Below, piece by piece: positions 8,920 to 49,101 of a stretch of 49,101 nucleotides of DNA. Both the position numbers and the translations under genes were made by a program. The stretch is from Natrinema pallidum DSM 3751 (GTDB lineage: Archaea > Halobacteriota > Halobacteria > Halobacteriales > Natrialbaceae): positions 1-49,101 of the forward strand of contig NZ_AOII01000099.1 of assembly GCF_000337615.1 (NCBI RefSeq). The letters are read 5' to 3'. Numbering within the stretch: position 1 is the first letter of the stretch; every line of letters starts with the position of its first letter. The notes below the pieces were generated by a model. The model was not told the origin of the DNA. It saw only the letters and a list, made by a program, of their open reading frames with translations, and did no database searches.

Positions 8920-9026
8920 TGTGGTGGGTCTTGGCGCAGTACCTGCCCTTCGGCTACGCAGGCCGGTTCCTGCTGTGGCTCGTCGTCCTCTACGGCGGCT
9001 ATATCATCGCTGCGGGGGCGATATAG
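8919..9026 (+). CDS. 35-residue membrane miniprotein
   Basis: The ORF begins MWWVLAQYLPFGYAG and holds one strong membrane segment (about 17-35). Its ATG overlaps the last base of the spike stop codon (TAATG), and the next gene follows its TAG directly. Pleolipovirus structural modules have a short membrane protein gene at this place (ORF6-like), which supports it in spite of its size. Confidence 0.65.
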   Translation: MWWVLAQYLPFGYAGRFLLWLVVLYGGYIIAAGAI

Positions 9027-9641
9027 ATGGACTCGAAACGAGTCCTCGTCGTCGGTCTCGTCCTCATCCTCGCCATTTCCGGGGCCCTTGTTACGGGGGT
9101 AACAGCATCTGTGGCTCAGGATGGCGATCGCGGGGCTGAGACTGACTCGGCGACCACGGACGGCTCCAAGAGCGACGGGAACGAAACCCAGTCCGTCGCG
9201 ATGGAACTCGATCCGAATACGCGGATTCTCGATTACCGATACTATTCGGAGAATGAAACACTCGAGGTTGATATCGAAAACCGCGGCGACACGCGCGAGC
9301 GGGTGATTCTTGTCGAGCGGACCGAAGCCGGATCGGAGTCGTTTGTATTCGAGCAGCGGACGATCCGCGGCGGCGAGACATCGACGATCGTGCTCGAGGG
9401 AGTGAAAGATCGCGGCGGCGACGATGCCGTGCTCGTGGCGTCCGAAACTGGGCTGGAGAATCAGGACGCCGAGTGGATCCCGACCGGCGAAGCGTGGTGG
9501 CCGTGGGCGGGTGAAATGGCGACGTGGGCGTTCGCCCGGATCGCCGGACTCGGTGGCGCGATTGGCGCGACATCCTTCGGCGTGTTCTACGGCTGGCACG
9601 AATACGCAGATAGCAGTAACAAAAGCGAGGATGCGCTATGA
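9027..9641 (+). CDS. Secreted membrane-anchored protein (pleolipovirus ORF7-like)
   Basis: A 204-residue protein with an N-terminal signal peptide (hydrophobic residues about 6-29), an acidic linker, a single beta-sandwich-like domain (about 55-135, strands such as LEVDIENRGDTRERVIL) and a C-terminal membrane segment near 168-190. It overlaps the next gene by four bases. Position between the tiny membrane gene and the ATPase region fits the conserved ORF7 of pleolipoviruses. Role in virion or vesicle assembly is inferred. Confidence 0.6.
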   Translation: MDSKRVLVVGLVLILAISGALVTGVTASVAQDGDRGAETDSATTDGSKSDGNETQSVAMELDPNTRILDYRYYSENETLEVDIENRGDTRERVILVERTEAGSESFVFEQRTIRGGETSTIVLEGVKDRGGDDAVLVASETGLENQDAEWIPTGEAWWPWAGEMATWAFARIAGLGGAIGATSFGVFYGWHEYADSSNKSEDAL

Positions 9642-10525
9642 TCCGAGATTTTGACCCGTCAGAAACCGGACCGATCGATCTGGCCGACCAGACCATCGAT
9701 GCCGTGCGGCAGCGACCGGTGTGGCAGCCGATTCTGGCGTTCGCACTCGCAGCCGGGATCTGGTTTTATTTCGATCTCTCGGTGCCGGTCGAACTGTGGA
9801 TCCTACTGTTCTCGGCGATCGGTGGCGTCGCCGTCGCAGCATTCCCGATCAAGAAGGTCATCGACTGGCTTCGGACCGACGACGACGAGATCCTCGAAGC
9901 AGTCGACCCGCGAGACGGCCAGAAGCAGATCAAGGCCCTCTCGCCGGATCGGTTCGCGAATCTCGTCGTGATCGACCAATCCGGTCGCGTGCGCGACACG
10001 GACTACCTCTACGACGAGTCGATCAACGGCCGGCAGACCTACGAGTGTGATTACTACCTCGAGGAATCGAACATCGCCGTTGCAAGTTGGATGGCCGGTG
10101 CTTCGAACAGCGACCTCCGGCGGCACAAACGCGGCGTCGACGCGATCAAGCGCCGACTGTCGATAGAGGCCGAACGCTCGCTCGACGAGCTGATCGAAGC
10201 GCCCGAAGCGATCCGGCAACAGGGATCGGCGGCGGTCAACCGAATCGTCCAGATTGCAGAGGGCGAACGCTCGCCCGGTGACGAGGGGTCGGTTGCAGAG
10301 ACGATGACCGATATCGTCGAGAACGAGCAGGATAACGTCGACTCGATTCTCGAGGACCGGACAATCGGCGATCTCGAAGACGAGATCAAGCAGTTGCGAG
10401 ACTCGACCTCGATCGAGGTCGACGACGTCCGCGATGAGGAGAGTAGCGGAAGTAGCGGCGAAGCGGCCGATGTGGATCCGATGAGTCGAACGATCGATAA
10501 ACACACGGAGGACTCCGATGAGTAA
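9638..10525 (+). CDS. Membrane-anchored coiled-coil protein of the assembly module
   Basis: A 295-residue protein. Two adjacent hydrophobic segments (about 30-48 and 51-70) form a hairpin anchor. A mixed alpha/beta domain follows (about 75-170), then long acidic helices (about 170-265) and a Ser/Asp-rich tail. Topology puts most of it in the cytoplasm. It overlaps both neighbours, the ORF7-like protein before and the ATPase after (8 bases), so a direct partnership with the ATPase at the membrane is a reasonable inference. Confidence 0.6.
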   Translation: MIRDFDPSETGPIDLADQTIDAVRQRPVWQPILAFALAAGIWFYFDLSVPVELWILLFSAIGGVAVAAFPIKKVIDWLRTDDDEILEAVDPRDGQKQIKALSPDRFANLVVIDQSGRVRDTDYLYDESINGRQTYECDYYLEESNIAVASWMAGASNSDLRRHKRGVDAIKRRLSIEAERSLDELIEAPEAIRQQGSAAVNRIVQIAEGERSPGDEGSVAETMTDIVENEQDNVDSILEDRTIGDLEDEIKQLRDSTSIEVDDVRDEESSGSSGEAADVDPMSRTIDKHTEDSDE

Positions 10526-11726
10526 AAGCCAGCAACCCGACGAGACACAGCACGATTTGCGCGGCCCGATGCGCGAGTTGCGGGAATACGCTCGCGACGA
10601 GTTAGACGTCCCGCACTCGGACGTGAAACGCGTCGCCGGGCTCGTTGAGGACGAGGAAGTCCTTGATTTCCTCATGTTCGCCGAGGCCGTCTACGAGCCG
10701 ATCGGCGATATGCCACTGGATTTCTGGGATACGGAGTTGGCCCAGGAAATTCTCAGCAATCAGGCAACGCGCACGGCTGCGAAAGCGGTCAAGAACGGCG
10801 ACCAAGCGACGACGGCCTACCTGACCGGGATTCCCAGCTACGATAGCGATATCTCCGGGATGAAGGCGATCAACACGTTGTGCGACTGGTTGCTCCACTC
10901 CGAGCAGTGTAAGGTGATCTACGCAGCGGCACTTATGGGCAGCGGCAAGACTGATTTTTCGCTGCTATTACTAGAGGTAATAGAAGATCACTATCGACGT
11001 GTCCAGAAAACGGCCGATGTTGATGTGCCGACGCCAGAGTTCGCGACGAACTTCTACGCCGAACCACCGGACCACGTCGATGCAGAAGTTCACGAGTTCC
11101 ACAACTACGAGCGATTCCTCGAGTGGGCCGAAAAGGGCTCGAGCGATGATGAGCGGTGGTTCATATTCGACGAGGCATCGACGGAACTGACTGCTCAATC
11201 GGGCGCGAACGCACAAGACGTCGCCGAAGTGTTCGCCCCATTTGTCAAGAAGATGAGAAAGATGGGGATCAACATGATCGTGATCGGCCACGATCGTGGC
11301 GACGTTCATCCGGCGATTCGATCGCTTGCATCCTTTATCGACAAAACCGGCTTGAAGACGGCTGAGATTTACGAGGGAATCAAGCAGCGCAAACCCTACG
11401 GTCACACGCTCAGCATCTCGGGCATTCCAGAGACAGGTTGGAATTTCAAGACCGACGACGTCGCCGAGTGGGAATGGGGCGACGCGCTCGAGGACGAAAC
11501 GAGCGAGGACGACCTCGCCGATCGCGATGATCTGGTTTCTCAGGACGAGTGGCGCGAGTGGCGCAACCAGACGATCGCCGCGACGTACCACGGCACCGAT
11601 CTCTCGCAGAACGATGTCGCCAGCGCCTTCGGTGTTGCACAGTCGCTCGTCTCGACAATCGTCAACGAGTACGAGGATATGTCGGTCCAACCGGCACCGA
11701 AGACGCCAGAAGCATCTGCTGACTAA
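10518..11726 (+). CDS. VP8-like P-loop ATPase with C-terminal HTH
   Basis: A 402-residue cytoplasmic protein. Walker A is ALMGSGKT (about residues 137-144) and Walker B is WFIFDEAS (about 214-221), followed by an Arg/Gly-rich sensor region (VIGHDRGD). The C-terminus has a helix-turn-helix (about 355-388, LSQNDVASAFGVAQSLVSTI) before a short tail. Pleolipoviruses keep a VP8/ORF8-type putative NTPase at the end of the structural cluster, and this gene has the same position. It could drive genome packaging or vesicle budding. The fused HTH suggests it also touches DNA. Confidence 0.7.
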   Translation: MSKSQQPDETQHDLRGPMRELREYARDELDVPHSDVKRVAGLVEDEEVLDFLMFAEAVYEPIGDMPLDFWDTELAQEILSNQATRTAAKAVKNGDQATTAYLTGIPSYDSDISGMKAINTLCDWLLHSEQCKVIYAAALMGSGKTDFSLLLLEVIEDHYRRVQKTADVDVPTPEFATNFYAEPPDHVDAEVHEFHNYERFLEWAEKGSSDDERWFIFDEASTELTAQSGANAQDVAEVFAPFVKKMRKMGINMIVIGHDRGDVHPAIRSLASFIDKTGLKTAEIYEGIKQRKPYGHTLSISGIPETGWNFKTDDVAEWEWGDALEDETSEDDLADRDDLVSQDEWREWRNQTIAATYHGTDLSQNDVASAFGVAQSLVSTIVNEYEDMSVQPAPKTPEASAD

Positions 11727-11727
11727 C

Positions 11728-12966
11728 ATGATAGAGCAAAACCCACAATCGCAAGACGACGGCGCGATCACCGACTATCAATCATCAGGGGAGGCCGGCC
11801 AACGCGTACGAGCGCGCGAGCGCGCGAACGACGACGATTCGGCAGAGGCCACCACACCGGACGAGACATACCGGAATCGTGAATGGCTCCACGCCGAATA
11901 TGTCGGTAATGAGCGGCCGATAACAGAAATTGCGTCGCAACTTGACGTATCGCCATCGACGATTCAGAACTGGTTAGATCGCCACGATATCGAGACTCGA
12001 GATCAATCCGTTTCCCGATCGGACGGTGATATCGAGAAGCTGCAAAATGAATCGTGGCTCGAGACCCAGTACGTTGAGCGCGAGTCATCAATCTGCGAGA
12101 TCGGGGCCGAACTCAACGTGTCGGCATCGACTGTCTCTAACTGGTTAGATCGGCACGGGATCGAGATGCGAACGCAATCCGAGTCGCAAACGGACGGTGA
12201 TATCTCGTTGCTCCAAGACAGGTCATGGCTTCAGGAACACTACATCGAACAGCAACTGTCGGCACCAGAAGTGGCAGACAAGGCTGGCGTCTCAAAGTCA
12301 GCAGTCTATACTTGGTTGGACCAGCACGGGATCGAAACCCGATCAATGTCCGAAGCAAAGGCCGACGGAGACACGGAGCCGCTCCAAGACCCCGAATGGC
12401 TTCGTGAGCAGTATCACGATGGGGAGCAATCGACGTACGATATCGCAGCGGAGTGTGGTGTGACCCGGCCGACGGTCTGTAACTGGATGCGCCGCCACGG
12501 GATCCAGTTTCGGGACCAAACCGACGGCGACGTCGAGCAGTTACTCGACGGGGAGTGGCTCCGCGAGCAGTACTGCGAACAGGACCGCCCGACGACGGCG
12601 ATCGCCGATGAGTTGGGCCTCGATCACCGGACCGTCCGGAAGTACATGGACAAGCATGGGATCGACCGGAAGTACCGGGGAAAGCACCACCACATGTGGA
12701 AGGGTGGCGGTGTCGAGTACTACGGCCCGTCGTGGCCCCAGCAGCGAGCGAAGACACTCCGACGTGACGACTTCGAGTGTCAGAACTGTGGTATCGGTCG
12801 CGACGACCACTACGAGAAGTTCGACCTCGATCTGAACGTGCACCACGTTCAGCCGTTCCGGACCTTCGATTCCGCAGCGATAGCAAACCAGTTGGACAAC
12901 CTCGTGACGCTGTGTCATAGTTGCCATCTCAAAATCGAGCGCACTAACGAGGTGTCTGAACAGTGA
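11728..12966 (+). CDS. HNH endonuclease with five tandem HTH repeats
   Basis: A 412-residue protein. Five related units begin with a W-L-x3-Y motif at about residues 51, 108, 165, 223 and 276 (REWLHAEY, ESWLETQY, RSWLQEHY, PEWLREQY, GEWLREQY), each followed by a helix-turn-helix ending in WLDRHGIETR-like sequence. The C-terminal 70 residues are an HNH domain: CQNC, HHVQPF and NLVTLCHSCH. Such proteins cut specific DNA, as homing-type or self-mobility nucleases. The frame stays open upstream of 11728 but there overlaps the ATPase; the ATG at 11728 follows the ATPase stop by one base. The next gene starts GTGA inside its stop. Confidence 0.75.
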   Translation: MIEQNPQSQDDGAITDYQSSGEAGQRVRARERANDDDSAEATTPDETYRNREWLHAEYVGNERPITEIASQLDVSPSTIQNWLDRHDIETRDQSVSRSDGDIEKLQNESWLETQYVERESSICEIGAELNVSASTVSNWLDRHGIEMRTQSESQTDGDISLLQDRSWLQEHYIEQQLSAPEVADKAGVSKSAVYTWLDQHGIETRSMSEAKADGDTEPLQDPEWLREQYHDGEQSTYDIAAECGVTRPTVCNWMRRHGIQFRDQTDGDVEQLLDGEWLREQYCEQDRPTTAIADELGLDHRTVRKYMDKHGIDRKYRGKHHHMWKGGGVEYYGPSWPQQRAKTLRRDDFECQNCGIGRDDHYEKFDLDLNVHHVQPFRTFDSAAIANQLDNLVTLCHSCHLKIERTNEVSEQ

Positions 12967-40710: not shown

Positions 40711-41033
40711 CGTCTGACCTCCGGGCCGCGAGTCCCGTCCGTAACGCCGGCCAGATACTGCGCGAGCGGGAGTGGTCCCTCGGAGACGTCCGGGACGCAA
40801 CCGTCGTGGTAGAACGATCCGAAGGCTGCCCCCATCATCTCGCCGTCGCCGATCTCGTCGTCACATTTCTGGCAGACGATCACGACCTCGTCGGGCAACT
40901 CGCCGCGGCCGTACTCGAGGTCGGGGAGATCGGCCAGCGTCTCGAGGACCGCGACGTCTCGGATCCCACTCTCCTGTAGGTGGACAGCGGTGGTATCGAC
41001 TTGCTCCTGGGCGAGATCGACGGTCGGGCTCAT
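40707..41033 (-). CDS. Unknown protein with Cys pair
   Basis: A 108-residue protein with a helical N-terminus (VHLQESGIRDVAVLETLADL) and CQKCDDEIGDGEMM (about 54-67) plus a later HDGC, forming a probable zinc site. ATGA overlap with its neighbours. Confidence 0.5.
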   Translation of the reverse strand: MSPTVDLAQEQVDTTAVHLQESGIRDVAVLETLADLPDLEYGRGELPDEVVIVCQKCDDEIGDGEMMGAAFGSFYHDGCVPDVSEGPLPLAQYLAGVTDGTRGPEVRR

Positions 41034-41299
41034 TCGGAATCACCATCTCCGAAGACCACGTCCGCGGGTTTGAAATGGAGATCGGCCACGTTCGACCCGG
41101 CGCTCCCATCGAAGGGGACCACCCCATACCGGACGGCCGTCTCGAAAATCGGCTCGAGATCGGCGACGAGATCCGACTCGTCACCGACGACCGAGACCGC
41201 GACCTCTGACTCGTAGTTCGTGGCGTCGACGTTCTCGAGACTGTTCGCTTCGGCAGCGAACCCCTCGAGTCGGTCGGCGGGTGTGCGTGGGTCGGTCAT
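41030..41299 (-). CDS. Small acidic unknown protein
   Basis: An 89-residue acidic protein with a strand-helix-strand pattern (SEVAVSVVGDES, DLEPIFETAVRYGVVPF). No family recognised. Overlaps before and after. Confidence 0.5.
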   Translation of the reverse strand: MTDPRTPADRLEGFAAEANSLENVDATNYESEVAVSVVGDESDLVADLEPIFETAVRYGVVPFDGSAGSNVADLHFKPADVVFGDGDSE

Positions 41300-41733
41300 T
41301 CGGAATCACGCTCCGGAGTCGTAATCTGCATCTCCTGATAGACGACCGGCGTCACGGCGATCAGCGCCCGGTCCTCGTTGGGGTCATTACACACCCACAG
41401 ATCAAGTTCGACGCCGTCGGCGGCATCGCTCCGATCGATATCCAAGTGCTCGAGGCCGGCCGGTGGAATCGCGACGGACTTGACCGAACGCGAGCCAAAC
41501 TCGTTGATCGCGCGGGCCAGCTCGTGCCTTCGACCATCGGGCCGATTGTCGACGACTTCGCCGGTGAGCCCCTTTGGCGAGTCGCGGTGGAAGACAATCC
41601 CGTTCCCACCGGCGTTGCCCGATTGATCGACCGCGTCTTGCACGGGGATCACGATCGAACCGTTCTGATCTCTCGTCGTCACTGTGCCTACGTTCCGGTA
41701 CGTCGGTTTCGGTTTCGTCATTAGCTCTGGCAT
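41296..41733 (-). CDS. AbrB-like N-terminus, unknown protein
   Basis: A 145-residue protein. TVTTRDQNGSIVIPVQDAVDQ (split motif: TTRDQNGS, VIPVQDA) near the start resembles an AbrB/SpoVT strand-loop, followed by a Gly/Asn-rich region and a beta C-terminus. The start at 41733 is set by the conserved leader: in the other copies the ATG follows GGTGCTTCC by one base, as here; another ATG lies four codons in. First gene of the operon under leader copy A. Confidence 0.55.
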   Translation of the reverse strand: MPELMTKPKPTYRNVGTVTTRDQNGSIVIPVQDAVDQSGNAGGNGIVFHRDSPKGLTGEVVDNRPDGRRHELARAINEFGSRSVKSVAIPPAGLEHLDIDRSDAADGVELDLWVCNDPNEDRALIAVTPVVYQEMQITTPERDSE

Positions 41734-41790
41734 TGGAAGCACCGGGAGCATTCTCCCGTACGAATACTTTGTATTGGTATACTACTTAGA
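41734..41790 (-). promoter_or_regulatory. Conserved promoter-leader element, copy A
   Basis: Read on the minus strand: an AT-rich box, the palindrome AATAC-aaa-GTATT (41763-41775), the hairpin GGGAG/CTCCC (41744-41757) and GGTGCTTCC (41735-41743) one base before the ATG. See the findings for the other copies. Confidence 0.75.
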
Positions 41791-41813
41791 ACTGTCGACG
41801 ACAGACGGCGTGG

Positions 41814-42497
41814 CTACGCCGACCACTCGGTGATGGCAGCCTGTTCGCTACCGGCCTCGCCGGGCTCTGGATCGGGCGAGTGTGTTTCCTCGGTCGCCTC
41901 CTCGAGTTTCTCGAGGTAGTGCCAGTACCCGTTCTGGAAAATCGTAGTCGTATCGCAGCTATCGAACCCGGTTCGGTAGGCCCATACGAGCCCGTCCGCG
42001 CCGCCGGGATTCCCGACGTGAGCCCGGAGGTCACGTTCGCGAGCCTCGGCCACGATTTGCTCGCCGTGCGCCCGTTTCCACCGTTTCGGACCACCGACGA
42101 AGACGCCTTGACAGCCTTCGATCGCGTCGAACTGTTCTGCGAGCGGCCGGCCGGGCTGGAGCACCCAGTAGCGGGCAAGTTCACCGGACCGCAGCGGGAG
42201 CGGCCGGTCGTACAGCCACTCCCGGTGGCGGTCGATCGTTGCCTCGGCGTCGCCGTACACGTCCGGTAAGACGATGAAATCCGGTACCGTCGGCATTTCG
42301 AGCAAGGACTGTTCGACCGTCTCGAGCCACTTCTCGGCGTCGAAGGAATCGGTGTATGCGCCGTTGTCGACGAAGTACGGGCCGTCGTGGGGCGTCATCT
42401 TCTGTGGGGTCCATCCGAACCCGTGCGTGTGCGATGGGGCGTGCTCGCGGGCCTTCCGGAGGTTATCAGGAGACGCGCCGGTGTAGTAGAGCCTCAC
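41814..42497 (-). CDS. dpdA: DpdA-like transglycosylase (TGT-family paralogue)
   Basis: A 227-residue protein from the GTG at 42497. Short TIM-barrel motifs in order: FVDNGAYTDSF (43-52, the counterpart of the TGT DSGGFQ loop), PDFIVLPDVYGDAEAT (72-87), VFVGGPKRWKRAHG (132-145), HVGNPGG (160-166) and GFDSCDTT (177-184). These identify the phage/archaeal-virus DpdA group, which exchanges guanine in DNA for a 7-deazaguanine base. The C-terminal Cys/His zinc site of true tRNA-guanine transglycosylases is absent. Last gene of the operon under leader copy B; GTGA overlap with the gene before. Confidence 0.65.
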   Translation of the reverse strand: MRLYYTGASPDNLRKAREHAPSHTHGFGWTPQKMTPHDGPYFVDNGAYTDSFDAEKWLETVEQSLLEMPTVPDFIVLPDVYGDAEATIDRHREWLYDRPLPLRSGELARYWVLQPGRPLAEQFDAIEGCQGVFVGGPKRWKRAHGEQIVAEARERDLRAHVGNPGGADGLVWAYRTGFDSCDTTTIFQNGYWHYLEKLEEATEETHSPDPEPGEAGSEQAAITEWSA

Positions 42498-42742
42498 GGC
42501 GATGCACCTCCCGCAGCGGCGAAGTCCTCGAGCGAGCGCTGGCCCGTTGCAACCGTCTCGTCGTACTGTCGTTCGATTGCCTGCCAGAACACAGCCCACC
42601 AATCTGGGCCGTCGCCGTCGTATGCGAGTTCGTCCGGCGCGTAGTATTCGAAGCCACAGGCATCGGCGAGCGCCATGCGGATGATCTCCCGTTCCCGATC
42701 GGCGTCGCGAAGTCGACCGGCCGGCCCACAGTAGACCGTCAC
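42494..42742 (-). CDS. Unknown small protein between DpdA and PP-loop genes
   Basis: An 82-residue helical protein (EREIIRMALADACGFEYYAP, then DWWAVFWQAIERQYDETVATG) with a Trp-rich middle. It starts with GTG overlapping the PP-loop stop and ends in the DpdA start, so all three are translationally coupled. It may be a subunit of the same pathway. Function unknown. Confidence 0.55.
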   Translation of the reverse strand: MTVYCGPAGRLRDADREREIIRMALADACGFEYYAPDELAYDGDGPDWWAVFWQAIERQYDETVATGQRSLEDFAAAGGASP

Positions 42743-44025
42743 CGTTGTTCACCTCCATCGGCCCGTGCCGGCTCGAGCGCCCGATCTTCGACGAGGTCCT
42801 GGTGGCCCTCGTAGCCGAGCCGATCGGCGACCTCGTCGAGCGCATCGTACGCACGCCGGAGGACGTCGAGCGGGTGTTCGTCACTGTTGTCGGGGATCGC
42901 CTGCGTCAAGTCGAACGCGTCTCGGAATGCCGTTTCCGAGTCGGGAACCTCCGATTCATCCAGTCCCAACGCGGCTTCGGTGAGAGTCTGATAGGCGTCG
43001 CCGGATCCGAGCCCGGGCGCTGCGGGTTCGCACGACTGACAGAGCGTCATCTCTCGGTTGCCGAGGCGCTGGTCTAATTCCCGCTCGGTCGTCGAGCCGT
43101 GGCCCCAGAGGACGAAGTCCTCGTAGGATTCCTTCTTCATGTTCCCGTTGCGGGCCGAGTCGATCACACGAGCCTCGAGCGACTGGATGTACGCCCACAT
43201 GTACGGCCACTCGTCGTGGATCACGTCGAGTTCCAACCAGCGGTCGGCGTAGGCCCCACAGAGACAGTCGCCGCTGTGAGAGAGTTCGTCGACGACTTCC
43301 GAGCGCGGGATGCCCTGGTCGTCGATGTAGTCCCGTACGTCCGCGGGTGTCCACGCAGCTAGCGGCGAGGCGTACAGATGGCCGTCCTTGACCTCGAGCC
43401 CGTCGGCGTTGACCTTCTCGAATCGGGCCTCGCTTTCCTCTCGAGTCGCGCCGGAGATCAACAGCGTCGTGCCGTCGAACTGGGAGAGGAGCGTCTGTAA
43501 CGGCTTGTCCTTGTTGTTGACCCACTCCCACTTGCGCGCCGTTTCGTTCGCGCCGGGAAATCCGTAGGTTTCGATTCGGGTCGCGTACTCGTCCTCGTCG
43601 CGGCGGACGTCTGCCACGTGCAACTCGAGTCCGAGATCGTCGGCGAACGTCTCGACGTAGTCGGTCGTCTCTCGCAGCCCGATCGACGTATCGATGTGGA
43701 TGATCCCATCGAGAGCGAACGGCGCGTTGTGGTAGGTGTAGTAGGCCGCGGCGACCGAGTCGTAGCCGCCGCTGACCAACGCGAAGGCCTGGTCCCAGTC
43801 CCGAGACTGGGCGTCATGGAGGATCTCGTCTGGGTCGTTTGTCTCGGGCGTCTCCTCCTCGAGCGAACCCCACGATTCGGATTCACCGTCGGTCCGATCG
43901 CCGAGGCCCGGTTCCGACGGGCCAGTGCCAGGGTTCGGCGTCGCCGGTTCGGTGTCTCCGGAGTCGGCACACGGCGCGGTGCGACCGCACGGGCAGCGGA
44001 AGCAATCGGATGGATCGCAGGTCAT
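42739..44025 (-). CDS. PAPS-reductase-like PP-loop enzyme
   Basis: A 428-residue protein from the ATG at 44025, which overlaps the previous stop. The N-terminus is Cys-rich (C3, C8, C11, C13, C19), then a linker. The PP-loop SGGYDS is at about 85-90, with SGATREES (about 191-198), WTPADV and SGDCLCG (about 251-257), the arrangement of the PAPS-reductase/adenine-nucleotide alpha hydrolase superfamily. Such enzymes activate by AMP transfer, as in sulfate reduction, DndC and nucleoside modification. Next to a DpdA-like gene a base-modification role is likely. It does not look like QueC, which has a shorter, different C-terminus. Confidence 0.65.
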   Translation of the reverse strand: MTCDPSDCFRCPCGRTAPCADSGDTEPATPNPGTGPSEPGLGDRTDGESESWGSLEEETPETNDPDEILHDAQSRDWDQAFALVSGGYDSVAAAYYTYHNAPFALDGIIHIDTSIGLRETTDYVETFADDLGLELHVADVRRDEDEYATRIETYGFPGANETARKWEWVNNKDKPLQTLLSQFDGTTLLISGATREESEARFEKVNADGLEVKDGHLYASPLAAWTPADVRDYIDDQGIPRSEVVDELSHSGDCLCGAYADRWLELDVIHDEWPYMWAYIQSLEARVIDSARNGNMKKESYEDFVLWGHGSTTERELDQRLGNREMTLCQSCEPAAPGLGSGDAYQTLTEAALGLDESEVPDSETAFRDAFDLTQAIPDNSDEHPLDVLRRAYDALDEVADRLGYEGHQDLVEDRALEPARADGGEQR

Positions 44026-44744
44026 GCCGACCACCTCTCGAGGGCTGCCTGTCCACTCGCGTCGGTGTCGATCTCCTTATCGGCGTACTCACGTGCCCAC
44101 CGTCGCGCCATCGTAACCGCAACCTCGAGCCCGCATTCGCTAGGCGTTTCGACGACAGGCGTGATATCGGGATGCTTCGATCCCGGTCCGTGAGCCTCGG
44201 TCCACGGCGCGAGCGCGACGGTCGCGTTCCCGCTGCCGCGCCACTCGTGGACGTACAGGTACGGTGCGTTCGCGTGGGATAGCCCCTCGGGCCCGTCGGA
44301 CCCACGGACGTCGATATCGACGCCGTCGTCGGCCCCCTCACGGCGGTAATAGACGATCGCCTCTCGGTTCTCGTGATAGTACGTCTCGAGCGTGTAGCCG
44401 ACCGGCGCGTCGAACACTGCCTCGCACACTTCGGGGTGAGCCCACGCCGCCGGATCGGTCTCGCCCATCCAGCCACGGGCCGCGTCGATCCCCTCGAGTA
44501 GCACACCGTCTCGGCGGTCGCGATCGTAGTCGATCCGCTCGAGTTCCTCGTAACTCGCGAAGCCGTCGACGCGATCGTCGGTGACGCGAACCGAGATGCT
44601 GCCAATGTTGTCGTAGACGCCGACCGAACACTCGTGTTCGTCCGACCGCCAGACGTGACCGTTCGACGAGTCGTCGGCGTCGTACTGCCAGCCGTCGATC
44701 GACAGGGACAGCTCGTAGTCGGCGGGAAGCGCTGGTTTCGGCAT
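44022..44744 (-). CDS. Unknown protein of the DpdA operon
   Basis: A 240-residue alpha/beta protein; beta-rich start (YELSLSIDGWQYDADD), middle WMGETDPAAWAHPEV, late strand HANAPYLYVHEWRGSG and a C-terminal helix. No catalytic motif recognised. Overlaps the PP-loop gene by four bases. Confidence 0.5.
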   Translation of the reverse strand: MPKPALPADYELSLSIDGWQYDADDSSNGHVWRSDEHECSVGVYDNIGSISVRVTDDRVDGFASYEELERIDYDRDRRDGVLLEGIDAARGWMGETDPAAWAHPEVCEAVFDAPVGYTLETYYHENREAIVYYRREGADDGVDIDVRGSDGPEGLSHANAPYLYVHEWRGSGNATVALAPWTEAHGPGSKHPDITPVVETPSECGLEVAVTMARRWAREYADKEIDTDASGQAALERWSA

Positions 44745-44747
44745 GGG

Positions 44748-45257
44748 CTATCCCTCCGAGACCACGCGGCCGATGTCGTCCGCGCTCGAGACATTTTCGG
44801 GCCAGTTGAGTTCGTCGTTGCACCAGGACATCCCGCGACCGACGCCGGTCACGAACCCGGACGTCTGCCACGGTGTGAGGACGTCGGCCGGCAGACGCTC
44901 GAAATGAGGCTCGAGCGCGCCGACGTAGGTCTCGCTCCCGATGAGCACGACCGCGTCGAAGTCCCCATCCGCGAGTACGTCCCGGAGGTCGCAGGCCACT
45001 TCCCGCGCCCACGCTTTCACCTGCAGGTCGTCCATGGCGTCGAGTGTGCGGTCGTAGTAGGCGAGTTCCGTGTCGTGTCGCACCAGTCCGTACTCGGCGC
45101 TCATGATGTAGTAGCCGTCCGAGTGCCGCCCGTAGCGATCCTTACAGGTGTGAACCGGACTCGAGTAGAGTTCGCGAGCGGGGACCGTTTCGCCGGCCGA
45201 GAGGTCCTGCTTACTCGCGCCACAGGAGACGACGGTACACACGCGGGGCCGGTTCAT
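44748..45257 (-). CDS. YaaA/DUF6884-like protein
   Basis: A 169-residue protein with the signature of this family in order: SCGASKQDL (11-19), ARELYSSP (27-34), YIMSAEYGLVRHD (50-62) and YYDRTL (67-72). The family is found in phage and mobile-element genomes and resembles the YaaA/DUF6884 group, some members of which are linked to 7-deazapurine genes; the biochemical role is unsettled. Its place in one operon with a DpdA-like enzyme supports that link. ATGA overlap with the gene before. Confidence 0.6.
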   Translation of the reverse strand: MNRPRVCTVVSCGASKQDLSAGETVPARELYSSPVHTCKDRYGRHSDGYYIMSAEYGLVRHDTELAYYDRTLDAMDDLQVKAWAREVACDLRDVLADGDFDAVVLIGSETYVGALEPHFERLPADVLTPWQTSGFVTGVGRGMSWCNDELNWPENVSSADDIGRVVSEG

Positions 45258-45742
45258 CGTTCACCTCGAGCACGGACGGCGTCTTTCCGCGGTGCATCGG
45301 CGTAGCCGGCGACGTGCTCACAACACCACTCACGGGCGGCCTCGAGTGAGTCGAAGGCGTCGCTGTCGCGGCACGATCCGATCCGACTCACCGAGTCGAC
45401 GTGCTCGCCGGCGTGGAACTGCCGAAGCGTCTCAATGTAGGCGTAGTGGCGAATCACGACGTACTTGCCGTCGATCGCCTCGCCGGGCCGGTGGGGGTGG
45501 ACCTGAACGCTCGAGAGGACACGGTCGTCCGCGTCGTCGAAGTCGGCGAACGTGATCTCACCGGGAAGGCTGTAGCATTCGCGGCCGTCTCGCGGATCGT
45601 ACCAGATCGTTTCCGATTCGTCATGTCCGGCGTATCGGGTGTGCGCTCGGTGGGTGTGCGTCTCGAGCGTGACGCCGATTTCCGGCGCGTCGGTGCCGGT
45701 CAGGTCGGACGTCGTCTCGAGGGTGGACTGGTCGGCGTTCAT
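45254..45742 (-). CDS. Unknown protein
   Basis: A 162-residue protein, beta-rich in the first half (EIGVTLETHTHRAHTRYAGHD, split) with a WYDPRDGRECYSLPG segment, then helices (FDSLEAAREWCCEHVAGYAD). His-rich; a metal site is possible. Not recognised. Confidence 0.5.
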   Translation of the reverse strand: MNADQSTLETTSDLTGTDAPEIGVTLETHTHRAHTRYAGHDESETIWYDPRDGRECYSLPGEITFADFDDADDRVLSSVQVHPHRPGEAIDGKYVVIRHYAYIETLRQFHAGEHVDSVSRIGSCRDSDAFDSLEAAREWCCEHVAGYADAPRKDAVRARGER

Positions 45743-46041
45743 CGGCTGTCCTCCGTGGGCCGCCAGCGTGGGCGCTCGCGAAGCTTCACCGTCGACTTGA
45801 CGACCGTCGCGCCGAAGTCAGGGGCTCGCGGGTGGTCGTTGCCGTGGGTGACGGTCAGCGTCACGATGCCGCCCGAGACGTCGTCGACGAGCGCGGTAAA
45901 GCGCGGGTGGTCGTCCCACAGGGCGTCACTGTGGGGATCGGCCACGGCGTCGGGGTCGGCCCGCGCTTCGTTGCACCGCCACGTCTGTCCGCGTTCAATC
46001 TCGAGCGCGTCGACGTCGTCGGTCTCGGGTTGGACCGTCAT
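45739..46041 (-). CDS. Unknown small beta protein
   Basis: A 100-residue protein; strands IERGQTWRC, FTALVDDVSGGIVTLTV and ATVVKSTVKLRERPRW suggest a small beta barrel (SH3/OB-like). The ATG at 46041 overlaps the previous stop. Function unknown. Confidence 0.5.
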   Translation of the reverse strand: MTVQPETDDVDALEIERGQTWRCNEARADPDAVADPHSDALWDDHPRFTALVDDVSGGIVTLTVTHGNDHPRAPDFGATVVKSTVKLRERPRWRPTEDSR

Positions 46042-46208
46042 CGTCCCACCCATCCGTCGGTACAGCGGTGTGCGCCACCGCGTCGGTGTAGCGTCCCGCA
46101 CTCGGCACACTCGGCGATTTCGGAGTCTGGGGTGCCCATTTCGTCCCGCCCGTCGGGCGTGTCCATGAGTTGCGTTACGTCGATCGCTGTTCTGCTTGAG
46201 TCCTGCAT
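46038..46208 (-). CDS. 56-residue zinc-finger protein, first gene of the DpdA operon
   Basis: A small protein with CAECGTLHRRGGAHRC (about 34-49), a CCHC-type single zinc finger, after an acidic start with MDTPDGRDEMG. Its ATG comes one base after the GGTGCTTCC of leader copy B, which fixes the start although the frame is open farther upstream. Confidence 0.6.
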   Translation of the reverse strand: MQDSSRTAIDVTQLMDTPDGRDEMGTPDSEIAECAECGTLHRRGGAHRCTDGWVGR

Positions 46209-46275
46209 TGGAAGCACCGGGAGAGTAGTTCTCTCCCTATACACATACAATGTATTTGTATGCTATTAAGTCTAT
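46209..46275 (-). promoter_or_regulatory. Conserved promoter-leader element, copy B
   Basis: Minus strand: AT-rich box ACTTAATAGC, palindrome AATAC-att-GTATG (46244-46256, one mismatch), hairpin GGGAGAG-aacta-CTCTCCC (46219-46237, the longest stem of the set) and GGTGCTTCC (46210-46218) one base before the ATG. Confidence 0.75.
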
Positions 46276-46334
46276 TGGAGACTAACCGATAGCGCTCTCG
46301 AGCGACGCGAAAAACAGAAAATCAGCGGTCGGGG

Positions 46335-47015
46335 TCAGTCGCCGAACTGCAGCGTCTCGTTATCGCAGAGGAAACAGCCACAGCGGTCGAACGGCACCTC
46401 GTCCTCGCTCGAGGCGATGCCGTGGTCCCGGACCGCGTCGCGGACCTGCTGCGCTTTCGCGACGATCGCCCCGAAGCGCTCGGGGTCGAACTCGAATAGC
46501 CCGTCTTCGGGCCACGTCCGAACTTCGAGGTCGCCCTTGTTCACGTAGACGACTTGTCCGTACTCCGCGCCGGTCGCGGCCATGTAGACGTGCATCTGAT
46601 CGAGGTGCCGGTCTTTCGGCGGGTCGAAGCGATACCACCCGTTCCGGCTCTTGACGTCGTAGACGGCGTTTGCGGCCGGATCGTAGCAGTCAGTGTGACC
46701 GACGAATCGCACGCCGTCGCGCTCGAGTTCGACCGCTTTCTCAAATTCGGCGTCGACGTGGCCGCCAACGTGGTCCTCGATGAACTCGTGAATCAGCGTG
46801 CCGGTCTGGAATGTTCCGAGAATGTCGGTGTGGTCCTTGAGTCCGAGTTTGCCGAGGTACGCCTGCCGCTTGCACGCGGCGATCTGCGACGGGTGCATGG
46901 TTTCGGCGTCGTGCTCGACGTGACTCTCGTCGTCGTTCGCTCGCTCGAGCGCGAGCTGTAGTTCGCTCTCGAAGTCGATCGCCTCGGGTTCGGTCGCTTG
47001 CTTTGCGTCGCTCAT
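46335..47015 (-). CDS. Cas4-like PD-(D/E)XK nuclease
   Basis: A 226-residue protein with RecB/Cas4 nuclease motifs: HPSQIAACKRQAYL (41-54, with Cys48), GTLIHEFIEDH (72-82, His76), GHTDCYDP (107-113, Asp109), YDVKS (119-123, the D-x-K motif), LDQMHVYM (138-145) and a C-terminal CGCFLC (212-217). One N-terminal and three C-terminal Cys are the 4Fe-4S ligands of Cas4. No other cas gene or array is present; haloarchaeal viruses carry such stand-alone forms. It may process DNA in replication or act against CRISPR. Confidence 0.75.
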   Translation of the reverse strand: MSDAKQATEPEAIDFESELQLALERANDDESHVEHDAETMHPSQIAACKRQAYLGKLGLKDHTDILGTFQTGTLIHEFIEDHVGGHVDAEFEKAVELERDGVRFVGHTDCYDPAANAVYDVKSRNGWYRFDPPKDRHLDQMHVYMAATGAEYGQVVYVNKGDLEVRTWPEDGLFEFDPERFGAIVAKAQQVRDAVRDHGIASSEDEVPFDRCGCFLCDNETLQFGD

Positions 47016-47224
47016 GCGTCACCACATCCGGCACAGATCCAGAGGTCGGAGTCGGTCTCGGCCTCGTCCCACTCGGAGTATCGAATGATCGCCTCCGGCG
47101 GCCCGTCGTAGCCGCAACCGCACGATATGGTCTCGTGGTCGGGTTCGTCGAGATAGCCGTGCTCCTCTGCTGCCTCCGCGTACTTGCGGACGCTTCCGTC
47201 GATGTTGCTAAAGTTGATAGTCAT
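47012..47224 (-). CDS. Zinc-ribbon miniprotein
   Basis: A 70-residue protein with CGCGYDGPPEA (about 35-45) and a C-terminal CAGCGDA, a two-pair zinc ribbon, preceded by a helix (VRKYAEAAEEHGY). The start overlaps the leader peptide stop (ATGA), and its stop overlaps the nuclease ATG, so the two are co-translated. Confidence 0.6.
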   Translation of the reverse strand: MTINFSNIDGSVRKYAEAAEEHGYLDEPDHETISCGCGYDGPPEAIIRYSEWDEAETDSDLWICAGCGDA

Positions 47225-47271
47225 GCTTTCTGAACCTTGATATCGATCGTCTTGTCTGTTGTCTCTGTCAT
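47221..47271 (-). CDS. 16-residue leader peptide
   Basis: MTETTDKTIDIKVQKA starts one base after the GGTGCTTCC of leader copy C, exactly where real start codons stand in the other copies, and its TGA overlaps the ATG of the zinc-ribbon gene. It is probably translated; its function may be translational coupling or sensing, not the peptide itself. Confidence 0.55.
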   Translation of the reverse strand: MTETTDKTIDIKVQKA

Positions 47272-47330
47272 CGGAAGCACCGGGCGTTTGCCCGTACCAA
47301 TACAGTGTATTTGTAGGGTTGTAAAACTAT
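47272..47330 (-). promoter_or_regulatory. Conserved promoter-leader element, copy C
   Basis: Minus strand: TTTTACAACC box, palindrome AATAC-act-GTATT (47299-47311), hairpin GGGC-aaac-GCCC (47282-47293) and GGTGCTTCC (47273-47281) one base before the leader peptide ATG. Confidence 0.75.
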
Positions 47331-47561
47331 CGATCACTACGGCGTTGCCACTCTGGGGCTGTCGAAATGGCGACGCCGAAAGTAACTCCCGGTGCTTCCA
47401 TACAACGGTGTGCCGGCGTCGCCAGACGAGCGTTCTGGAGCGAGGGTGAAAACCCTGCCGACAGCTACCGATCCCTCACGACCGATTCTCGAGCCGAGAG
47501 CCGGGCCTCTACCGCTCGGCGGAAATCCGGAAATCGGATGCCGTACTGCGGGTTCCAGTAG
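47331..47561 (+). ncRNA. Candidate structured RNA or degenerate leader region
   Basis: The 231 bases between leader copies C and E have no convincing gene. They hold an incomplete leader copy (CTCCC then GGTGCTTCC at 47386-47399, without the palindrome and without an ATG after it) and several hairpins: CCAGA/TCTGG (47422-47438), GGGT-GAAA-ACCC with a GNRA loop (47444-47455), and GCCGAG/CTCGGC (47493-47520). This may be a small RNA or a decayed gene with its leader. Confidence 0.3.
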
Positions 47562-47622
47562 TTTTATTATACTACAAATACACTGTATTGGTACGGGGGG
47601 ACGAACCCTCCCGGTGCTTCCA
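47562..47622 (+). promoter_or_regulatory. Conserved promoter-leader element, copy E
   Basis: Plus strand: TTTTATTATA (47562-47571), palindrome AATAC-act-GTATT (47577-47589), hairpin GGGGGG/CCTCCC with one G-U pair (47595-47612) and GGTGCTTCC (47613-47621) one base before the ATG at 47623. The TATA-to-hairpin distance puts the predicted transcript start just before the hairpin. Confidence 0.75.
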
Positions 47623-47937
47623 ATGAGTTTCAGCAAACCGTCGAATCTGGATCCGGTCGAGTACAACGAGCAAATCGAGAAGCTAACGGCCCTGAAATCG
47701 GCTTTAGCGTCTACGCGCTGTGTGGAATCGTTCGACGTGAACCTCTCGAAGAACGGCCGCATTCGCGGGCGTGTGTCGCTGCGACACTCGGAGACGTTCC
47801 ACGAGTTCAACGACCTGCTGCTCGATCACCCGGTCCGAGTGATTAGCCTGACGAGCGAGGACCGCGTTGAGGACGCGCCGGACGGCGGCAAGCGCCAAGC
47901 CGTCGAAATCCGCGTGGTCATCCTCGAGACGCAATAG
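47623..47937 (+). CDS. Unknown protein under leader copy E
   Basis: A 104-residue protein: a helical start (VEYNEQIEKLTALKSAL), a beta part (RIRGRVSLRHSETFHEFN) and strand VEIRVVILETQ at the end, like a small alpha/beta domain. It faces away from the Cas4-like operon. The start is fixed by the leader; the longer frame from 47392 has no coding character. Being in the regulon makes it a candidate partner of the DpdA or nuclease genes. Confidence 0.55.
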   Translation: MSFSKPSNLDPVEYNEQIEKLTALKSALASTRCVESFDVNLSKNGRIRGRVSLRHSETFHEFNDLLLDHPVRVISLTSEDRVEDAPDGGKRQAVEIRVVILETQ

Positions 47938-48002
47938 GACGAACGGCCGTCCCACGGCCGCCTCGAGTGGTCTAACCAGCGTTCGATTCGCTGGCGAGGC
48001 GT

Positions 48003-48062
48003 ATGGCTAACTCAATCAGCCAGCTCATCGAGATCGCCACTCTCGAGGAGGGGTCCCGATGA
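48003..48062 (+). CDS. 19-residue peptide
   Basis: MANSISQLIEIATLEEG with its stop overlapping the next ATG, and GAGGAGGGG in its 3' part as a possible Shine-Dalgarno for that gene. It may be only a coupling ORF. Confidence 0.35.
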   Translation: MANSISQLIEIATLEEGSR

Positions 48063-48202
48063 GCGATTTCTGCGTTCAGTGCGGCGACGCTGAGAGCACC
48101 ACAGACGCCGGTGAGTACGTCGAAGTATCGGACGAGGCGTTGGGCATCTACACGGACGTCTGGGTGTGTGACGGCTGTCTCCCGGAGGACTCGGACCGAT
48201 GA
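48059..48202 (+). CDS. 47-residue zinc-ribbon peptide
   Basis: CVQCGDA (5-11) and CDGCLPED (about 37-44) make one zinc ribbon. A GAGGAGGGG stretch upstream is a good ribosome binding site. Overlaps the next gene by four bases. Confidence 0.55.
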   Translation: MSDFCVQCGDAESTTDAGEYVEVSDEALGIYTDVWVCDGCLPEDSDR

Positions 48203-48333
48203 GTAGCACCGAGCAGTACGTCGATCTGTGCGCGGAGTGTGCGGCGTTGATCGATCCGGAGAGCCACCTGTACAATCCGCAGACGAGCGAGTGTTTCTGT
48301 TCGCCCGACTGCTGGGCTGAACGAGTCCTGTAG
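48199..48333 (+). CDS. 44-residue zinc-finger peptide
   Basis: CAECAALID (11-19), then CFCSPDCWAERVL at the end: Cys pattern of a treble-clef-type finger (TRASH/MYM-like C-x-CSP-x-CW). Last gene of the window; it ends with TAG at 48331. Confidence 0.55.
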   Translation: MSSTEQYVDLCAECAALIDPESHLYNPQTSECFCSPDCWAERVL

Positions 48334-49085
48334 CGGAAACGCCGGAGAGCGGCGTCACGCGGCCACTGACGCAGGAATAGCTTTTCGAGACACTCCCTGA
48401 TTTCTGTATAGCAGCATATGGTTATAGCGACGGTTGAGCAGAGCGCTGCGAACGACCTCGGTGACGGCGATCGCGACGTCGCTGGGAAACCAAATTTTTC
48501 GCGAAACGCTCAACACACAGTACAGCGCCTGACGCTACGGTTCTCGCCAAGTCGAAGCGGAGAGCCGAGAGCACTTGGTGCTCGAGGCGCGGAGCGCTGC
48601 GGCGATCGGGACGAGCTGGCGGCGACCAGGAAGCGCTGAGTAACGGAACCGATCGGCCTAACTCCTCTGTCGCACTGACACAACAAGACGTCTGAGCACG
48701 GAGAGAGGCTCGAGAGCGAGCGCGGTGTGCTCGCGATCGGGCCGAGCGACAGATAAAGCGGGATCGAAAACCGCACGATAGCGTGGGGGTAGAGCCGGCG
48801 CTACGGCCGGCAGAAATATTTACTCGGACTCGAGTACGGCGACCGAATTAGACTCGAGATAGCAGACAGATTGTGGACACATAATCGATGAGTCATTTCA
48901 CGGATCTACCAGCCAACGAACACATATCGAAATAGACAATTCATCGAACTACCAGAAATATTAGACTATCAGAAACCAAACACATAATTTGAGCCACATT
49001 ATATGTTTTCGGAGAAAAACGGCTTGTAATTAACCCGACTTAGTTTCATGCGGTGCGGTGGTTGTGTTTTCTGCCGGTTGCTATG
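48334..49085. other. Gene-free right end, AT-rich terminus
   Basis: 750 bases without a convincing gene; the one ORF above 70 codons (48418-48639) has Arg/Ala-rich, non-acidic composition. Up to about 48800 the sequence is GC-rich with short imperfect repeats; from about 48840 to the end it is distinctly AT-rich with several TATA-like strings and repeated CTCGAG spacers. If the molecule is circular, this joins the pyrimidine tract at 130-540 and makes a gene-free region of about 1.3 kb. Confidence 0.5.
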
Positions 49086-49101
49086 CTGTCTCTTATACAC
49101 A
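49086..49101 (-). other. Tn5 mosaic-end adapter remnant
   Basis: The last 16 bases are the reverse complement of the mosaic end found at 1-18, three bases short of full length. This is a tagmentation artefact. Confidence 0.95.

Follow-up and report, generated by a model that had tools for sequence, protein, structure and literature searches.

The window analysed here is the whole of contig NZ_AOII01000099.1 (49,101 nt) from Natrinema pallidum DSM 3751, which belongs to a 3.9-Mb Natrialbaceae draft genome. Four operons in this contig are headed by similar promoter-leader cassettes (leaders A, B, C and D), and a fifth copy of the short tag that ends each leader lies between leaders C and D. We propose, with a probability of about 0.74, that this fifth copy is the loop of a trans-acting antisense small RNA (sRNA), here called E, which would block initiation on the four operons; these operons also share an operator. 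The architecture, conservation, covariation, complementarity and code specificity that point to this reading were shown by computation on the sequences of five related plasmids.

A preliminary description of this DNA had placed four leader copies at 41734-41790, 46209-46275 and 47272-47330 on the minus strand and at 47562-47622 on the plus strand. We found all four at these positions and strands. The invariant tag that it had noted one base before the ATG was also found: GGTGCTTCC, then A or G, then ATG is present in 4/4 leaders. A sequence-only model scored the four leaders at expectation values of 1e-17 to 1e-20, which are only descriptive because the model was built from the same four copies, and it detected a weak fifth partial copy at 47382-47400. 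The palindrome AATAC-N3-GTATT was found four times in the contig against 0.31 expected, and 0/100 shuffles reached four. GGTGCTTCC alone, with one mismatch allowed, was not beyond chance within the contig (13 found, 10.4 expected). The pattern CCCGGTGCTTCC, which joins the tag and the hairpin arm, occurs five times in the 3.9-Mb genome, always on the 49-kb contig, and the reversed control pattern gave 0. Four of these five copies precede an ATG and the remaining one lies within E. Furthermore, CCCGGTGCTTCC-N-ATG was found four times in this contig, and a search of 124 other family genomes gave 0. Thus, the list of four copies was incomplete: the tag copy at 47386-47400, which does not stand before a start codon, was missing from it.

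Searches with a Cas4-like nuclease and a 104-aa protein (protein D), both encoded behind these leaders, led to four related Natrialbaceae elements, namely Halopiger xanaduensis pHALXA03, N. pallidum pNPA70, N. gari contig_5 and N. ejinorense contig00003. Each of them possesses exactly four leaders and one E, which are syntenic and lie ahead of orthologous genes. Their leaders show the same order of TATA-like box, palindromic operator, 5′-terminal hairpin, tag and ATG, with different letters. In these leaders, which we call code 2, the palindrome is CGTARC-N3-GYTACG, and the tag CGGTGTTCCCC is followed by 0-2 nt and then ATG. Code 1 is CGGTGCTTCC; it differs from CGGTGTTCCCC at several positions, and at all five sites together. 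Within any one of the five plasmids, the E loop and all leaders share one code. In 20/20 leaders of the five plasmids, the predicted start is preceded by the palindrome and this, in turn, by the TATA-like box. When the relatives' plasmids were searched with two mismatches allowed, only three other, poorer sites were found besides the leaders. In N. gari contig_5 (L067 1503-1680), an N and an exact duplication of ~100 bp within the nuclease gene probably reflect an assembly fault.

The leader hairpin is conserved with compensatory change. In the nine distinct 19-nt leader hairpins, 98.4% of cells were paired and 15 cells were changed on both sides; both-side changes occur at 5/7 pairs, and 0/500 shuffles reached the observed covariation score. 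The preliminary description had reported, from the contig alone, a covarying hairpin whose stems differ yet keep pairing. The pairing holds, and true compensatory change is present over the 20 leaders. Within the contig, however, the stems differ mostly in length, and base-for-base covariation requires the relatives. The spacing from the TATA-like box to the hairpin is 31-33 nt in 20/20 leaders although stem length ranges from 4 to 8 bp. Because this spacing is constant despite the variable stems, the hairpin is predicted to stand at the 5′ end of the transcript, in agreement with the start just 5′ of the hairpin that had been proposed before.

These observations bear on whether the repeats are simply DNA elements, that is, operators or recombination sites without any RNA role, or a duplicated promoter cassette. 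Promoters C and D are nearly alike (90% over 39 nt), which shows that duplication happened, and the palindrome is surely a DNA site. Nevertheless, a DNA element would not explain the compensatory changes in otherwise diverged stems, the fixed distance between hairpin and TATA-like box while stem length varies, the position of the tag always 0-2 nt from ATG, or the tag copy in E, which lacks the palindrome. Therefore, we regard this explanation as very unlikely.

We then considered the mechanism given in the preliminary description, in which the palindrome is recognised by one transcription factor and translation is switched by the leader hairpin itself, without a small RNA. The palindrome at every leader, the strong covariation of the hairpin and its placement at the predicted 5′ end are all consistent with this model, and conserved structure with compensatory change is also what a cis-acting structured leader would show. 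However, the tag and the start codon are mostly unpaired in the predicted leader folds, where the hairpin covers at most one or two bases of them, and no alternative structure that hides the start region was found in these folds. Moreover, this model leaves unexplained the fifth tag copy in a conserved stem-loop, its letters that change together with those of the leaders, and the solitary copies in other genomes described below. We therefore consider it unlikely. Translational control by the hairpin itself is unsupported as stated; what is conserved as a target is the tag, which lies single-stranded between the hairpin and the ATG. Possible roles of the leader hairpin are instead to hold the tag single-stranded and close to the 5′ end, to shield the end of the mRNA, or to suppress starts of the leaderless type. 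The idea of one regulon read by one transcription factor survives in part: the four operons belong to one regulon, in which each has an operator-like palindrome, but the likely controller is the antisense RNA between leaders C and D, which had been overlooked.

In each of the five elements, E separates the divergent leaders C and D, and its loop follows the code of its own plasmid. In the base stem, two pairs are changed on both sides among the five plasmids. The apical stem, when read on the minus strand, is closed by C-G or U.G at three positions, where the opposite strand would give C.A. A T-rich box is present 28-31 nt upstream of the stem in 8/8 sRNAs (five cognate sRNAs encoded beside leaders and three orphans) and is absent from the sense strand. 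The boxes of the cognate sRNAs (n=5) rank in the top 0.05-0.9% of positions on their own strand, as compared with 1.4-6% on the opposite strand. After the stem, there is a short T stretch (ATTTC, ATTCT, TTTGG or TTTTG). The minus strand was chosen for E because of the U.G rather than C.A pairs, the upstream T-rich box and the trailing T stretch. Thus, the E locus has the anatomy of a small stand-alone RNA gene, with a product predicted to be antisense to the leaders. A covariance model of the sRNA, R2, recovers E in its own genome with an expectation value of 2.5e-10, this E being among the sequences from which R2 was built. Rfam covariance models gave no match over 41000-49101 up to an expectation value of 1, nor for one code-2 and two orphan loci up to 0.5.

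The choice of strand also bears on a different role for E. A protein, perhaps the product of target gene D or A, might bind the single-stranded GGUG..UCC tag, and E might be a sense-strand decoy RNA that titrates this protein. E folds on the sense strand too, the tag letters are identical in E and the leaders, and gene D adjoins E in 5/5 plasmids. The AlphaFold model of protein D is weak (pLDDT 68) and weakly resembles ferredoxin-like, S6-type folds; its best match in the PDB, a permuted ribosomal S6 (expectation value 8e-3), is a lead only. On the sense strand, however, E has C.A mismatches at the positions where the antisense strand has U.G, the promoter-like box and the T stretch are found on the antisense strand only, and solitary sRNAs occur without D or any leader. 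Therefore, a decoy is improbable.

Complementarity between the predicted antisense RNA and the leaders is extensive. In computed pairings, the E loop binds 14-16 contiguous nt, in which the hairpin's 3′ arm is followed by the tag as far as the start codon. We calculated interaction energies including the cost of opening both structures; in this simplified calculation on eight test leaders, without salt correction, cognate pairs gave -7.0 to -10.9 kcal/mol and non-cognate pairs between plasmids gave +1.9 to +6.4 kcal/mol. A hybrid-only energy matrix over all 20 leaders agreed with this result. E overlaps none of the four leaders. Thus, E is encoded away from its predicted targets and is complementary to the initiation regions of their mRNAs, as in trans-encoded antisense sRNAs.

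On the basis of these results, we propose the following mechanism. The four operons would start from promoters that have a palindromic operator in common; it lies after the TATA-like box and before the start of the transcript, and a repressor probably acts there. Their mRNAs would open with the hairpin, and a short tag, single-stranded and 10-12 nt long overall, would come directly after it and lead to the start codon. A ~65-nt stem-loop RNA would be transcribed from its own minus-strand promoter (47427-47363), and its loop would expose a sequence exactly complementary to the tag and the hairpin's 3′ arm (14-16 bp). Pairing over the last ~14 nt before the start codon would most likely block initiation on all four mRNAs, and duplex-triggered decay may occur in addition. 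Because the sRNA would act in trans, an incoming element should be silenced if it bears the same tag and unaffected if it bears the other. That the sRNA is made, that it represses, and that repression occurs via blocked initiation is what we infer from the sequences.

Several points weigh against this proposal. Code 1 with leaders is represented by a single plasmid, and because the five cognate plasmids are related, their sites are not independent. The three apical pairs that decide the strand vary on one side only, and among the five T-rich boxes, that of the contig's own sRNA scores lowest (top 0.9% of positions). A sequence-specific RNA-binding protein with drifted specificity could also explain the matched letters. 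Furthermore, in Haloferax volcanii, transcripts are mostly leaderless and the Shine-Dalgarno mechanism is unused at 5′-untranslated regions (PMC3986360); because of this, a leader of the present kind is unusual.

Besides the known members, model R2 found sRNAs in five genomes without leaders (G049, G057, G058, G062 and G076); pattern searches for leaders in these five genomes found none. Conversely, a solitary sRNA was present in 0/4 searched genomes that possess leaders. Since R2 expectation values near 1e-4 are not decisive, the orphans rest on their loop, stem, box and T stretch. Further R2 matches in G063, G307, G341, G293, G248, G099, G016 and G017 are coding-like sequence and were set aside. 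The solitary sRNAs of G049 (Natribaculum breve plasmid CP095392), G057, G058 and G062 share one locus type, in which the sRNA is flanked on each side by a winged-helix gene paired with a toxin-like or PIN-like gene, the toxin-like match being weak (expectation value 0.023). G076 represents a second setting, in which the sRNA adjoins a tyrosine recombinase. At two loci (L125 8858-11324 and L126 747-2673), the pairs that flank the solitary code-1 sRNA look like toxin-antitoxin pairs (DUF7342 winged helix with TumE-like, and DUF7437 winged helix with PIN-like).

Solitary sRNAs occur in both codes, each with its own box and T stretch, and their computed pairing depends on the code: G076 pairs with leaders of code 2, G049 with those of code 1. 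The cross-code energies of G049 were -3.2 to +4.4. Within the orphan subfamily, the stem is kept and the loop differs between codes (88% identity over 66 nt). A conserved stem with a code-bearing loop is expected of a recognition loop under selection to match its target. As a tentative explanation, the solitary sRNAs might be captured immunity: plasmid-free genomes would keep a code-1 or code-2 sRNA that silences the early operons of an incoming plasmid or virus of that code. If so, by changing operator and tag jointly, a plasmid would either have escaped from an immunity group or have founded one, and an RNA tag of 10-12 nt would carry the arms race.

Among known systems, the one that works most similarly is the c4 antisense RNA of phages P1 and P7. 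It binds in the region of a ribosome-binding site, controls translation of the antirepressor gene and sets heteroimmunity among related elements (PMC12197685). Like c4, E is an element-encoded structured RNA with a loop complementary to initiation-region sequences. Unlike c4, which targets the ant mRNA, E has four predicted target operons on both sides of its gene, the tag that it would target recurs within a cassette that includes a 5′ hairpin and an operator, its host is an archaeon, and there is no known sequence relation. In addition, c4 targets an antirepressor mRNA from within the same transcript region, whereas none of the four operons here was recognised as encoding an antirepressor. 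In haloarchaea, the antisense RNA of halovirus phiH (Stolt and Zillig 1993) is cited, in a passage of PMC6210493, as the first described. It resembles E as an antisense RNA of a haloarchaeal mobile element that acts on transcripts of the element. The phiH RNA is reportedly cis-encoded and directed at the leader of one transcript. In contrast, E is predicted to be trans-acting and short, with several targets.

Methanosarcina mazei sRNA154, sRNA41 and sRNA162 act in trans and mask the ribosome-binding regions of several mRNAs (PMC5867862, PMC3510493). E is likewise intergenic and predicted to cover the initiation regions of several mRNAs. The Methanosarcina sRNAs, however, are chromosomal and have metabolic targets, with no known duplicated target cassette, coordinated code change or link to mobile elements. 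The plasmid copy-number antisense RNAs ColE1 RNA I and R1 CopA are small stem-loop RNAs with loop-initiated pairing, and they are transcribed opposite their target. E resembles them as a small plasmid stem-loop RNA with a mismatched bulge in the stem, and incompatibility is an expected consequence. In contrast to them, E is not transcribed opposite any of the four leaders, and no replication gene was recognised among the first genes of the operons. In the open-access literature searched, we found no trans-acting sRNA described for the whole regulon of an archaeal plasmid or virus, although this absence is not proof of novelty.

Archaeal small RNAs with defined targets are very few. Here the sequences give the predicted sRNA together with its four targets, the letters of recognition and two orthogonal versions, which makes pairing and specificity directly testable. 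If our proposal is true, haloarchaeal elements would possess a two-layer lock composed of operator and antisense RNA, and a short RNA code would be a basis for superinfection immunity or incompatibility. It would also provide a ready orthogonal translational switch for haloarchaea, in which structured 5′ leaders are unusual.

Table 1. Positions of E, the leaders and the target genes in the 49,101-nt contig
Feature	Position	Strand	Basis or remark
E, predicted trans-acting antisense sRNA, ~65-nt stem-loop	47363-47427	-	conserved in 5/5 plasmids
E base stem, 10 bp	47414-47423 with 47369-47378	-	inverted repeat
E predicted target-pairing loop (fifth tag copy)	47386-47400	-	complement of tag
T-run of TATA-like box of E, starting 29 nt upstream of stem	47449-47452	-	
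Leader A	41731-41790	-	sequence-only model
Leader B	46206-46272	-	sequence-only model
Leader C	47269-47328	-	sequence-only model
Leader D	47560-47625	+	sequence-only model
Palindromic operator, leader A	41763-41775	-	palindrome search
Palindromic operator, leader B, one mismatch	46244-46256	-	palindrome search
Palindromic operator, leader C	47299-47311	-	palindrome search and leader model
Palindromic operator, leader D, AATACACTGTATT	47577-47589	+	palindrome search and leader model
Hairpin, leader A, GGGAG-AATG-CTCCC	41744-41757	-	predicted fold
Hairpin, leader B, GGGAGAG-AACTA-CTCTCCC	46219-46237	-	predicted fold, covariation
Hairpin, leader C, GGGC-AAAC-GCCC	47282-47293	-	predicted fold
Hairpin, leader D, GGGGGG-ACGAAC-CCTCCC	47595-47612	+	predicted fold
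Tag, leader A, GGTGCTTCC	41735-41743	-	tag search and computed pairing with sRNA
Tag, leader B, GGTGCTTCC	46210-46218	-	tag search and computed pairing with sRNA
Tag, leader C, GGTGCTTCC	47273-47281	-	tag search and computed pairing with sRNA
Tag, leader D, GGTGCTTCC, predicted sRNA target together with preceding CTCCC	47613-47621	+	tag search and pairing
Target gene A, 145 aa	41296-41733	-	homologous in four relatives (29-35% identity), no family match
Operon B: first open reading frame 46038-46208, small proteins, DUF6884 protein 44748-45257, PAPS-reductase-like protein 42739-44034	42739-46208	-	extent from gene overlap and direction only
Leader peptide C, 16 aa, MTETTDKTIDIKVQKA, ATGA overlap with next gene	47221-47271	-	read from sequence
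Operon C: 70-aa CxxC protein 47012-47224, PD-(D/E)XK, Cas4-like nuclease 46335-47015	46335-47224	-	
Target gene D, 104-aa protein of unknown function	47623-47937	+	orthologous in four relatives (60-68% identity)

Family searches confirmed the Cas4-like label of the nuclease in operon C. The DpdA label that had been given to a downstream gene was not confirmed; this open reading frame has no Pfam match. Leader B opens a short open reading frame (56 aa) that overlaps the next gene by ATGA, as does the one behind leader C. The N. gari counterpart of leader peptide C has 15 aa, and the two share the ending EVQKA/KVQKA. In operon B, the PAPS-reductase-like protein has a weak SspD match, and the DUF6884 protein matches PADLOC PDC-M57A (expectation value 5.7e-20) and, weakly, DpdC. 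The operon B genes at 42739-45257 are suggestive of a DNA-modification or defence module. Protein A, the product of the first gene in one of the regulated operons, looks similar to AbrB-like proteins by eye alone; no library supported this, and its AlphaFold model was unusable (pLDDT 45).

Searches beyond the five plasmids added no leaders. In the stretches examined around more distant nuclease homologues (G329 and others), a repeat of this sort was not seen, and no leader was visible at the loci in Natronorubrum aibiense and Natribaculum breve that possess a homologue of operon A's second gene. The repeats GACACTGGAC and TTCCGCTGTT, obtained from an upstream-repeat search in other plasmids, were rejected as leaders: they are origin repeats beside Orc1/Cdc6 genes. 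Their positions are L065 18468-18650 and L064 11898-12252, and they are probably origin recognition boxes. A viral scan with CCCGGTGCTTCCNATG gave 37 single matches, all due to chance by context and without hairpin or palindrome. When viral sequences were scanned with the loop of code 2, the stem of the orphans, or the nuclease and protein D, nothing usable was obtained, and phage records contained no DNA match and no D homologue.

Genes of the contig include those for ParA and a DNA cytosine methyltransferase, and one module resembles the structural genes of pleolipoviruses. Because of these genes, the 49-kb contig is a plasmid or plasmid-provirus. The pleolipovirus-like module (6277-12966) contains an 880-aa Tat-signal protein (phrog_2231, expectation value 1.8e-65), a relative of VP13 of Saline Natrinema sp. 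J7-1 virus 2; homologues of phrog_5952 and phrog_1979 come next. Near both contig ends, there is an inverted repeat of 61 nt (268-328 and 48686-48746) with 80% complementarity.

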